Assembly: GCA_003216465.1 (NCBI GenBank)
Contig: QCIU01000003.1
Location: 62,001-126,000 of the forward strand
DNA: 64,000 bases
Source: Prochlorococcus sp. AG-402-N10
Lineage (GTDB): Bacteria; Cyanobacteriota; Cyanobacteriia; PCC-6307; Cyanobiaceae
Direction: 5' to 3'
Part shown: one piece after another, positions 1,265 through 49,574 of the stretch
Layout: each line of letters starts with the position of its first letter
Numbering within the stretch: position 1 is the stretch's first letter
The notes under the pieces: generated by a model
Databases searched by the model: none
What the model was told of the DNA's origin: nothing
The model's input: the letters and a program-made list of their open reading frames with translations, nothing else
Position numbers and translations under genes: made by a program

Positions 1265-2248
1265 GTGCAATTTATCGATCAAGCAAATATTATCCTCAAA
1301 GCTGGCAAGGGCGGTAATGGAATAGTTTCATTCAGAAGAGAAAAATTTGTTCCTGCCGGAGGACCTTCTGGAGGTAATGGAGGAAAGGGTGGTTCAATAA
1401 TCCTTATTGCTGATAATAATCTTCAAACTCTTTTGGATTTTAAATTTAATAGAGAAATATTTGCTAAAGATGGTTTCAAAGGCGGACCAAACAAAAGATC
1501 TGGAGCCTCAGGTGAAAACACAATCTTAAAAGTTCCTTGTGGCACCGAAGTTAGAGATGTTAATTCTGGTATTATTTTAGGAGATTTAACTCAAGATAAG
1601 CAGAGTTTAACTATTGCATACGGAGGTAGAGGTGGACATGGTAATGCTTATTATTTAAGTAATCAAAATCGGGCTCCAGAATCTTTTACACAGGGGAAAG
1701 ATGGAGAGATTTGGGAGGTTCAATTAGAATTAAAACTTCTTGCGGAAGTAGGTATTATAGGTCTTCCTAATGCAGGGAAAAGTACTTTGATTTCTGTTTT
1801 ATCATCAGCCCGTCCAAAAATTGCAAACTATCCATTTACAACTTTAATACCTAATTTAGGGGTAGTAAGGAAGGCTGATGGAAATGGATGTCTTTTTGCG
1901 GATATTCCTGGTTTAATATCTGGAGCATCTGAAGGAGTAGGGTTGGGTCATGATTTTTTAAGACATATTCAAAGAACTAAGATACTTATTCATTTAATCG
2001 ATTCAATTGCAGAGAATCCTATTCATGATTTTGAAATAATTGAGCAAGAATTAAAACAATATGGCAATGGTCTTTTAGATAAAGAAAGAATAGTTGTACT
2101 TAATAAGATGGAGCTTGTAGATGAAATCTATTTGAAAATAATCACAAAAAAATTAGAAAAGTTATCTAAGAAAAAAGTTTTAGTTATTTCTTCATCTTTA
2201 CAAAAAGGCCTTTCTTTACTACTTTCTGAGGTCTGGAATAAGATTTAA
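1265..2248 (+). CDS. obg: GTPase Obg/CgtA
   Basis: This is a 327-residue GTPase involved in large ribosomal subunit assembly and stress control. The N-terminal glycine-rich Obg fold is clear ([16 protein letters not shown], then [14 protein letters not shown]) and spans about residues 1-158. The G domain follows with G1 GLPNAGKST, the switch region with [11 protein letters not shown]3 DIPGL and G4 NKME. There is no C-terminal OCT extension, which is usual for the short cyanobacterial form. The start is a GTG codon, fixed by the conserved MQFIDQA N-terminus. It follows mutS2 closely and may be co-transcribed with it. Confidence 0.97.
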
Positions 2249-47212: not shown

Positions 47213-47830
47213 ATGAAATATGATGTAGATCATGAATTTGTCTGCATTAGTTCTCAAACCGCAACTCATAGAATAATTTTGCTACATGGTTGGGGAGCTG
47301 ATGCAGATGACCTTTTAACACTTGGAAAGGAGATTGTAGAACAAATAAATCTTGATTTTGAGGTAATTTCTTTGAGAGCTCCTGGATTACATCCTAGTGG
47401 TCAGGGAAGACAGTGGTATCAATTATACCCGCATGATTGGAAGGGGGCTGAGGTTGAAGTAAATAAACTTTTAGGAACATTAAAAAAATTTGATACCGAT
47501 CAGATTTCAATTGGCAAAACAATTTTGTTGGGTTTTTCTCAAGGGGCAGCTATGGCAATTGATGCAGGATTTAAATTAAATTTTGGACTTATTGTTGCTT
47601 GTAGTGGTTATCCTCACCCTAACTGGGCTCCAGAAGAAAAATGCCCACCATTAATAGTTAGTCATGGTTTATTTGATGACGTGGTACCTATAAATGCTTC
47701 AAGAATTATTCATGAAACGGTAAAAAGTAAGTCTTCTGAATTTTGTGAATTAATAGAATTTGATGGAGTCCATCAAATTGATTCAAATATAATTAATTTT
47801 ATAAGTTCAAATATAAATAATATTTTTTAA
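47213..47830 (+). CDS. Carboxylesterase/phospholipase-type alpha/beta hydrolase
   Basis: The 205-residue hydrolase has the oxyanion region LLHGWGADADDL, the nucleophile elbow GFSQGAA, an aspartate in HGLFDDVVP and a C-terminal histidine in DGVHQID, which complete the catalytic triad. It is most like the acyl-protein thioesterase/phospholipase group. The substrate is unknown. Its end overlaps the convergent DUF3155 stop by four bases. Confidence 0.85.
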   Translation: MKYDVDHEFVCISSQTATHRIILLHGWGADADDLLTLGKEIVEQINLDFEVISLRAPGLHPSGQGRQWYQLYPHDWKGAEVEVNKLLGTLKKFDTDQISIGKTILLGFSQGAAMAIDAGFKLNFGLIVACSGYPHPNWAPEEKCPPLIVSHGLFDDVVPINASRIIHETVKSKSSEFCELIEFDGVHQIDSNIINFISSNINNIF

Positions 47831-48195
47831 ACGAAAGCATATTCGTATTCTTCAATCTCTTCCCAATCATCTGCAGTAAGTTCTAGACCTTCAAATATTT
47901 TTTCTTCACCAATTCCCTCAACTACGACTTTTAGTGATGGAAATAGGAAATGATTTTCTTCAGCATATTGGGCACTAAATAAACCTTTTTCACCCCAAAA
48001 AAACCTATCAGTGGTATGTTCATTTCTTCGAACATTGAAAACTGAAGGGGCAGACAACGCATTTTCAGCTATAAATCTTCTTGCAGCTGTAACTGGTTTA
48101 TGCTTGCCGGTTTCGATATGATAAATAGGTACATGTGCCATTACTCTTTGGCCAGCCAACCTTCTTCTGCTGATTCTTTTTCTCTTTTTTGACAT
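47827..48195 (-). CDS. DUF3155 family cyanobacterial protein
   Basis: The 122-residue protein has a very basic N-terminus (MSKKRKRISRRRLAGQRV), a middle with FNVRRNEHTTDRFFWGEKG, and an acidic end (DDWEEIEEYEYAFV). I recognise it as DUF3155; the function is unknown, and the basic start hints at nucleic acid binding. A strong AGGAG ribosome binding site lies 9 bases before the ATG (48209-48205 on the minus strand), unusual in this genome and a sign of high expression. Confidence 0.78.
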   Translation of the reverse strand: MSKKRKRISRRRLAGQRVMAHVPIYHIETGKHKPVTAARRFIAENALSAPSVFNVRRNEHTTDRFFWGEKGLFSAQYAEENHFLFPSLKVVVEGIGEEKIFEGLELTADDWEEIEEYEYAFV

Positions 48196-48286
48196 TGATT
48201 GGTACTCCTGAAATTATCAATTAGATTAGCCTTGTTTATTTTTACTAATCTTATATCTGTGATTTTTTAATTCACTTAAATTACAT

Positions 48287-48364
48287 AGAGGACCCATCAA
48301 CCCCTGATGTAGCTTAAAATATGATTTAATGTTCATATTTAAGGCTGGCTAAAGTCAGACCTCT
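48287..48364 (+). ncRNA. Candidate structured RNA with four stems
   Basis: An outer stem AGAGG/CCTCT closes three hairpins: CATCA/TGATG (48295-48309), AAATATGA/TCATATTT (48317-48340) and CTGGC/GTCAG (48345-48358). Together they make a compact four-way-junction fold of 78 nt. A -10-like TAAATT at 48277-48282 would start transcription right at the outer stem. It could be a small RNA or the leader of the downstream kinase gene. I cannot match it to a named family. Confidence 0.4.
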
Positions 48365-48437
48365 TTATATATCTTAATACTTTTTTCATATTTTACAAGT
48401 CCTTTTTCAAATTTTTTTTAAAAAATTTTCACTAATT

Positions 48438-49574
48438 ATGAAGCTCTCAAAAAAATTTGAAGAATTAATCATTAAACAGCTAGAAAGTTTTGGTTGCTCA
48501 ATGGGAGTGACTAATTTGGTAATGTATATAGCATCAGCTGAGCAAGGAACTAAAGCATCTTTTGAAATGATTGGTCAATGGCCACAAATTGATAGGCTTT
48601 TAATATCAGTAGAAGATGATCCTTCACTAAAAGTTTCTTCTCCTAATAGAAGATGGTACCCTCTTCAAGAAAGCGATATCCTACTTGGTGTCCTTAGGGT
48701 AGAAACTGATTTGAAAGGAGGGAATTGGCCAGTATCTCTTGACTCTAGATTAAAAGCACTTTCAATATCTTTAGCTAAATGTGTTTCTATCGAATTAGAA
48801 CGACAAAATAAAAATGAAGAAATCAATTATTTAAAAAATCAGGTCAATGTCATAATCCATCAATTAAGGAATCCATTGGCTGCTCTTAGGACATATGCAA
48901 AATTACTAATAAAAAGACTTGGTTCAGATGATGACTCTATTGAAATAGTTGAACGCATGATAATAGAGCAAAAACAAATTAATCAATATATGGACTCTTT
49001 TGCTCAATTAAATTCACCTATTCAACTTCCTCTAGAAATTGGAGAAGAAAGGTTATTATTACCACCAAATTTAGATAATAAAAAGCTAATAACTGTTCAA
49101 AGTTTATTGAGGCCAATTTTAGAAAGGGGTAAAGCTAATGCGAACTTAGAGAATAGAGATTGGACGGAACCCTCTCTTTGGCCAGATTGGACTTTATCAC
49201 CATTAAAGGCTAAATATGCTGTAATTGCTGAGATTGTGGCAAATTTATTAGAAAATGCCTTTAAATACGCCCAAAAAGATGCAGAGATTGGACTCACCAT
49301 TACGAGTAAAGGTCTGGGTATATTTGATGATGGTAAAAAAATAACCAAAATTGAAAATGAGAAAATTTTTCAAAAAGGCTTTAGAGGATCTGCCGCCAAG
49401 AAGAAGGATGGCACTGGTGTGGGACTTTTTTTAGCGAGGAAATTAGCAAAACAAATTGGAGGAGAGTTGAGATTGCTTGAAAAATCCTCAATTAATGATG
49501 TTAAGGAATTAAAAAATCTTAAGAAGAAAAATATTTTCTATTTAGAACTTCCTATAAAAGAATTGCATTCATGA
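48438..49574 (+). CDS. Sensor histidine kinase
   Basis: The 378-residue kinase has no membrane helix, so it is soluble. An N-terminal GAF-like region (about residues 1-125) includes a cysteine at residue 20. It is followed by a dimerisation/phosphoacceptor helix with the histidine in IIHQLRNPLAALR (about residue 141), and an ATPase domain with the N box LLENAFKYA and the G box GTGVGLFLARKLA. No receiver domain is fused. The layout resembles Hik2/chloroplast sensor kinase proteins, but that match is uncertain. Its 3' end overlaps cobS by 23 bp. Confidence 0.85.
   Translation: MKLSKKFEELIIKQLESFGCSMGVTNLVMYIASAEQGTKASFEMIGQWPQIDRLLISVEDDPSLKVSSPNRRWYPLQESDILLGVLRVETDLKGGNWPVSLDSRLKALSISLAKCVSIELERQNKNEEINYLKNQVNVIIHQLRNPLAALRTYAKLLIKRLGSDDDSIEIVERMIIEQKQINQYMDSFAQLNSPIQLPLEIGEERLLLPPNLDNKKLITVQSLLRPILERGKANANLENRDWTEPSLWPDWTLSPLKAKYAVIAEIVANLLENAFKYAQKDAEIGLTITSKGLGIFDDGKKITKIENEKIFQKGFRGSAAKKKDGTGVGLFLARKLAKQIGGELRLLEKSSINDVKELKNLKKKNIFYLELPIKELHS

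Follow-up and report, generated by a model that had tools for sequence, protein, structure and literature searches.

Because Prochlorococcus and marine Synechococcus have only a small set of protein regulators, a conserved RNA leader matters for gene control in these organisms. Long structured 5' leaders that act in cis are known from autogenously regulated mRNAs, including those of ribosomal proteins and others. The element described here resembles them as a predicted long structured 5' leader before the gene of a small basic-ended protein, and it would likewise act in cis, but the protein, DUF3155, is not a known ribosomal protein and the binding partner here is a candidate. With the Yfr small RNAs (Yfr1-21, Yfr28, 29, 103, 106-108), the element shares an intergenic position, structure, and a promoter-like box of its own; it differs from them in that the tables examined, as far as they give positions, place none of these RNAs at this site in MED4, and in being predicted from sequence.

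The closest described counterpart is cluster 217 in Table 1 of Axmann et al. 2005 (PMC1242208), a 153-nt MED4 candidate (Z -1.63, Z rev -4.28, Exp '-') whose neighbors are a gene for a two-component sensor histidine kinase and one for a conserved hypothetical protein. The authors report that they probed the seven remaining candidate regions of MED4 on each strand, and since the footnote there explains '+' and 'NT' only, the '-' is read here as tested without signal. We folded eight 153-nt stretches of the L005 spacer, and bases 73-225 yielded z -4.44 on the plus strand and -1.50 on the minus strand; given this match, cluster 217 is very likely the same spacer, and the initial annotation, which had put the element forward as a candidate for an undescribed one, was probably mistaken on this point. 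The likeness lies in MED4, the kinase/conserved hypothetical spacer, and a similar pair of Z values on the two strands, whereas cluster 217 was given, as far as that table goes, for MED4 only and without relatives, strand, gene, or detected transcript, and the present analysis follows the element through the family by its box, core, and hairpins. In MED4, purH is PMM0266 (PMC3598940, as consulted in part), and the DUF3155 gene would have a number near PMM0268, which fits. No ncRNA near MED4 position 258,700 appears in Table 1 of Steglich 2008 (PMC2518516), no RNA is named in this spacer in the sections consulted of Lott et al. 2020 (PMC7368042), and the corresponding sections of the MED4 transcriptome paper (PMC3898218) and of a Red Sea paper (PMC5069720) hold nothing on it. 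The sole mention of DUF3155 in the literature surveyed, likewise consulted in part, is a passing one as an expressed missed gene (PMC3364912).

In the window (the whole 64-kb stretch of DNA that was analyzed), a 242-base spacer at 48196-48437 separates the DUF3155 gene on the minus strand from a divergent histidine kinase gene on the plus strand. The features of this locus, from the kinase to DUF3155, are the following:

48438-49574, plus strand: divergent histidine kinase gene (HisKA and HATPase_c)
48371-48398, minus strand: promoter-like box, with -35-like TTGTAA (48393-48398), a 16-base spacer with an A-tract, and -10-like TAAGAT (48371-48376)
48196-48364, minus strand: predicted 5' leader of the DUF3155 mRNA, about 169 nt, its start placed from the -10-like sequence and the reading based on the box and the downstream gene
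48313-48343, minus strand: AU-rich HL hairpin in place of P2, equivalent to P2 by position only
48285-48315, minus strand: conserved core AAGCUACAUCAGGGGUUGAUGGGUCCUCUAU with hairpin P3 inside it, the place where model R1 matches the window best
48223-48251, minus strand: second leader hairpin AGATTAG/CTAATCT, read in the sequence, shortly before the ribosome site
48205-48209, minus strand: Shine-Dalgarno-like AGGAG of DUF3155, read in the sequence
47827-48195, minus strand: DUF3155 gene (122 aa; PF11352, 5.1e-45), the likely regulated gene

A relative of the first 121 residues of the kinase was identified in 232 of 251 family genomes. Of 145 cyanobacterial genomes drawn class-wide, 144 had a member of the DUF3155 family, as did 1 of 14 controls, Synechococcus elongatus, so the predicted leader stands before a near-universal cyanobacterial protein. 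The protein begins with MSKKRKRISRRR, and its motifs RRNEHTTD and FFWGEKGLFSAQYAEENHFLFPSL were invariant across 34 family proteins. A sequence search for a relative in the PDB found none, and the AlphaFold model (mean pLDDT 61, pTM 0.56) was too poor for a fold search. Rfam, which the initial annotation had suggested as a check, has no family that matches the element: at the gathering threshold, three tRNAs were the sole matches in the window, and a relaxed search of the spacer and ten loci with relatives returned matches far under the gathering scores. A tRNA-like or tmRNA reading was discarded, with ARAGORN finding neither at the site.

As blastn with the element had a weak reach, spacers were fetched by means of the kinase (80 regions) and of DUF3155 (80 loci kept of 422 from named organisms, including Prochlorococcus single-cell genomes, MIT 0701, Synechococcus WH7803, S. 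lacustris, and Cyanobium). From 285 loci, 39 (L171-L205, L056, L057, L059, and L060) were excluded before the box and core search, which left 246; those among L001-L060 had been chosen for their DNA similarity to the element or the spacer, which introduces circularity, and the remaining ones by the kinase, by DUF3155, or as places beside the kinase. A good many places are represented by two loci, and the clade counts are based on the 151 distinct sequences among 242 hits. The clade labels (HL, LLA, LLB, SYN, and FW) sort sequences by pattern and length, not by tree. The SYN/FW alignment omits seven poor fits (L049, L080, L108, L127, L147, L243, and L285) and, from the remaining 76, seven more, mostly with a poor P2 (L141, L143, L144, L149, L153, L164, and L233), so that the paired percentages of P2 and P3 are favored by these 14 omissions; single-sequence folding and the shuffle tests of hairpins and wobbles for P1-P3 use all 90 SYN+FW sequences. 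Shuffle statistics throughout ignore kinship among sequences.

An alignment of 62 spacers contained two conserved blocks. The box block reads TTGaaaaWTYWGAAAAAAGTATTAAGAT on the minus strand (28 bases, TTGnnn-N16-TAAGAT) and lies approximately 35-90 bases ahead of the kinase start, and the core block, RAAGCUACAGCAGAGGUWGAUG on the same strand (short form AAGCUACAxCAGRGG), lies approximately 55-100 bases downstream of the box. A fuzzy search identified the box and then the core, in that order, in 242 of 246 loci, and did not find them in the other 4 (L139, L211, L272, and L284). TAAGAT was kept in all distinct sequences of HL (27/27), LLA (19/19), and LLB (15/15), in 52 of 61 from SYN, and in 23 of 29 from FW, figures that are partly circular because the sequences had been preselected with a fuzzy box of at most 5 mismatches. 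The window's box agrees with the sigma-70 consensus at 8 of 12 positions by manual count, which is under the cut-off of the promoter scan, so that the scan does not list it; the support for this putative promoter is its conservation, not its match to the consensus. In a free search allowing at most 1 mismatch, the 16-base box core GAAAAAGTMTTAAGAT had 10 copies in 9 of 11 genomes, 9 of them adjoining DUF3155, and a regulon motif was rejected because these 9 are the same DUF3155 locus. A second exact copy of GAAAAAGTATTAAGAT is present in the window's genome at G000:C15:7115-7130 (locus L291), and a DUF3155 relative was not found in the 3,016 bases around it. Judged from their sequence, box and core probably point to DUF3155, away from the kinase.

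The conserved control region is common to Prochlorococcus, marine Synechococcus, and Cyanobium, and in relatives the element lies upstream of DUF3155 and on the DUF3155 strand. The whole spacer matched 31 of 37 same-genus genomes, the window's own included, at E <1e-50, and it matched no genome among the 23 others drawn. Using the element alone, blastn returned weak matches in 14 genomes of other genera, 10 of them upstream of the kinase orthologue. The minus-strand model R1, for which 69 sequences were used, matched 169 of the 251 genomes of the family, representing 47 of 59 genera, with one place per positive genome except for G287, which had two; among the first 34 R1 hits listed, 31 had a known kinase place, and all 31 were just upstream of the kinase and on the opposite strand. 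The best R1 match in the window reached 13.7 bits (E 0.051), and the R1 search had no match in the genus to which the window belongs, a probable reason being the divergence of P2 in that genus.

The element is most likely part of a 5' leader of DUF3155 of 170-330 nt, with leaders of 166-173 nt (median 169) in HL and medians of 241-325 nt in the sister clades. A start 6-8 bases past the -10-like sequence would set the 5' end of the predicted RNA at the edge of the conserved block. In the minus-strand RNA of the sister clades, P1 lies in the first 60 bases, P2 just before the core, with arms GGUUGCAC..GUGCAACC (GGUUGC..GCAACC), and P3 inside the core, with arms GCAGAGG..CCUCUGC. All 3 hairpins were more frequent in SYN+FW than in dinucleotide-shuffled sequences (P1, 32/90 vs 14.0 +/- 3.4; P2, 34/90 vs 17.6 +/- 3.5; P3, 43/90 vs 12.4 +/- 3.2), and 0 of 100 shuffles had as many in each case. 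In LLA+LLB, P2 (15/34 vs 8.9 +/- 2.5) and P3 (25/34 vs 4.3 +/- 1.8) were above shuffles, and P1 was not (9/34 vs 7.9 +/- 2.2). P2 was 79.9% paired in 69 SYN+FW sequences, and 5 of its 8 pairs changed on both sides. For P2 and P3 jointly, 34 cells had changed on both sides against 15.4 +/- 3.1 in shuffles (0/500), and neither the doubly changed pairs (8 vs 7.5 +/- 1.5; 248/500) nor the pair types (147/500) were more numerous than in shuffles. In the leaders of L087, L088, and L090, the P2-core module GAGGTTGCAC..CACCAAAGCYACAGCAGAGG was tandemly duplicated (element 1268-1418, minus strand).

Closer to the gene, a hairpin covering the Shine-Dalgarno sequence, for example CTCCC/GGGAG or ACTCC/GGAGT, was identified in FW and SYN loci, in the 34 bases directly ahead of DUF3155. 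It was found in all 26 FW tails (controls 18.1 +/- 2.1) and in 37 of 57 SYN tails (22.5 +/- 3.0); it was not above control in LLA (10/18 vs 8.2 +/- 1.7) and occurred in 0 of 15 LLB, 0 of 14 labelled HL, and 1 of 8 HL tails left unlabelled. A short conserved leader peptide, suggested by an ATG after AGAGG in many sequences, was set aside by eye, as frames shift where the P2 loop changes in length and third positions do not vary freely.

On balance, we lean toward the element being part of the 5' untranslated leader of DUF3155, on the minus strand and directed away from the kinase. Transcription would start near 48364, just past the conserved single-locus promoter-like box, and the RNA would pass up to three hairpins (P1, P2, and P3) around AAGCUACAxCAGRGG before reaching DUF3155, whose expression would be controlled in cis. 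In the window, P3 pairs AGGGG (48301-48305) with CCUCU (48287-48291), and the same CCUCU, its 3' arm, can pair either with the adjacent AGGGG or with AGAGG at the predicted 5' end, two folds that would be mutually exclusive. A bound factor could select between them, and the DUF3155 protein itself is a candidate; as for a riboswitch, the neighboring genes suggest no ligand. In the streamlined clade of the window, the leader may have shrunk to approximately 169 nt, with the four-way junction of the initial annotation as the mirror image of the shortened leader. We put forward tentatively, as a rather doubtful extension, a family-wide RNA class in which a bistable DUF3155 leader has one pyrimidine arm with two exclusive pairings, is perhaps bound by DUF3155, and takes its minimal form in HL. 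The leader reading defines a place, a strand, and a set of mutations for testing, and it may account for the 2005 candidate lacking a small-RNA signal.

We analyzed wobble pairs and folding energies for what they indicate about the strand. In SYN+FW, the wobbles of P1 (G-U:A-C 50:35) and P2 (34:19) favored the minus strand, with 1 of 100 shuffles as skewed for each and 0 of 100 in an additional count for P1; after thinning to 55 sequences, 4 and 5 of 100 shuffles, respectively, reached the skew. P3 favored the plus strand, both in SYN+FW (30:35 observed vs 50:43 shuffled) and in LLA+LLB (7:16, with 100 of 100 shuffles leaning more to minus), and P2 in LLA+LLB weakly favored plus (8:15; 90/100). 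A pair-by-pair count on the minus strand gave 36 G-U and 21 A-C for P2 and 78 G-U and 69 A-C for P3. Taken over compensatory changes, P2 was supported on the minus strand in SYN+FW, P1 partly, and P3 was neutral or leaned to plus. Single-sequence folding favored plus in HL (z -3.4 vs -2.2), where the minus strand was relatively stabler in 1 of 27 sequences, as well as in LLB (2/15) and LLA (5/19), slightly so in FW (10/29), and was even in SYN (31/61). Alifold on early alignments favored minus (syn, z -4.2 vs -2.9; LL, -2.8 vs -1.8), and by clade, calculated without shuffles, its energy was lower for minus in LLA, LLB, and FW and for plus in HL, the two strands being equal in SYN. The pairing signals are mixed and, taken alone, insufficient to settle the strand; the minus-strand reading comes mostly from the box and its placement and from the downstream gene.

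The plus-strand structure proposed by the initial annotation consists of the following features, listed with the candidate promoter on the same strand:

48287-48364, plus strand: four-way junction of 78 nt with four helices, clade-specific
48287-48291/48360-48364, plus strand: outer stem AGAGG/CCTCT, read in the sequence
48295-48299/48305-48309, plus strand: helix CATCA/TGATG, read in the sequence
48317-48324/48333-48340, plus strand: helix AAATATGA/TCATATTT, read in the sequence
48345-48349/48354-48358, plus strand: helix CTGGC/GTCAG, read in the sequence
48189-48217, plus strand: candidate promoter TTGACA-N17-AATTAT, 10/12 matches, its TTGACA overlapping the DUF3155 start codons

The four helices and their coordinates were found as proposed, and the kinase ATG at 48438 does lie 73 bases past them; their pairing, called perfect, is so only if wobbles are counted, as the 23 pairs include 1 G-U. 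The 78-nt plus strand has a folding energy of -21.3 kcal/mol, compared with -12.5 +/- 2.7 in 200 shuffles (z -3.2; 1/200 as good), and the 94-nt minus strand also beats its shuffles (z -2.4; 3/200 as good), so that folding is above chance yet not strand-specific. The proposed TAAATT -10 box (48277-48282) did not hold up, being kept in just 7 of 42 distinct sequences of the window's clade. The four helices were 97.6% paired across 27 distinct sequences of HL type, with 1 compensatory change, which 93 of 500 shuffles equal, so that the close strains speak neither for nor against the helices. CATCA/TGATG was complete in 24 of the 27 and in 0 of 124 distinct sequences from sister clades, and the putative four-way junction is a feature of that clade alone. 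The plus strand has a weakly scoring terminator-like site at 48345-48358, made up of CTGGCTAAAGTCAG and then ACCTCTTTAT. The initial annotation had read the element as a possible leader for the kinase; it was right about a conserved structured element and a plausible regulatory leader and probably wrong about strand and gene, so that its observation is partly confirmed and its interpretation half right.

A plus-strand kinase leader in the HL clade, starting near 48224 and carrying the four-way junction in the kinase 5' UTR, is nonetheless conceivable because of the TTGACA-N17-AATTAT sequence and the better plus fold found there, although we consider it unlikely. The promoter-like sequence occurs in 30 of 34 distinct HL sequences, the plus fold reaches z -3.4 over 27 HL sequences and z -4.4 for bases 73-225 of the L005 spacer, and helix 4 in HL retains G-U on plus (21 cells, which are A-C on minus). 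Against this, the promoter-like sequence is found in 0 of 122 sequences of other clades, its TTGACA doubles as DUF3155 coding sequence, and 1.4 such matches are expected by chance in shuffles of the region. Conservation of a plus-strand promoter and structure was sought in relatives and found in HL only, whereas the element is family-wide and the complete CATCA/TGATG helix is missing from the other clades, as is the proposed -10 box from most of the window's own. Further, both departures in the HL outer stem (2/135 cells) are A-C on plus and hence wobbles, G-U, on minus only.

It is quite improbable that conservation acts at the DNA level, with a regulatory region shared by the divergent genes, protein-binding sites, and hairpins that are inverted repeats. 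The mixed strand signals in folding and wobbles would suit this, as would the equal departures in P3 (G-U 73 vs A-C 74 counted cells), but the paired changes in P2 and the wobble bias of P1 and P2 in SYN+FW count against it, and the distance from box to core is far for a promoter site. A separate small RNA made from the minus-strand box and acting in trans appears very unlikely: box and structured region are almost always a single locus per genome, as such an RNA would have it, but the MED4 Northern tests carry a '-' for cluster 217, the element is not among Yfr8-21 of MED4 in the table consulted, P3 as a rule has no T-run following it (by eye), and patches of conservation continue toward the DUF3155 start in marine Synechococcus-like spacers.

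The leader of DUF3155 that we favor is concentrated in one family of Cyanobacteria. In the class-wide draw of 145 genomes, R1 matched 8, namely 7 of 14 from the same family and 1 of 131 outside it, the latter marginal (E 0.0093), and blastn of a freshwater relative over the class gave just short weak matches outside the family. The upstream region of 20 DUF3155 loci from other families differs and was without box or core. By eye, the start of many DUF3155 genes in these other families (L171-L190) is closely preceded by a TATAAT-like box and a short hairpin (for example, TTGTAGCTATAACTACAA).
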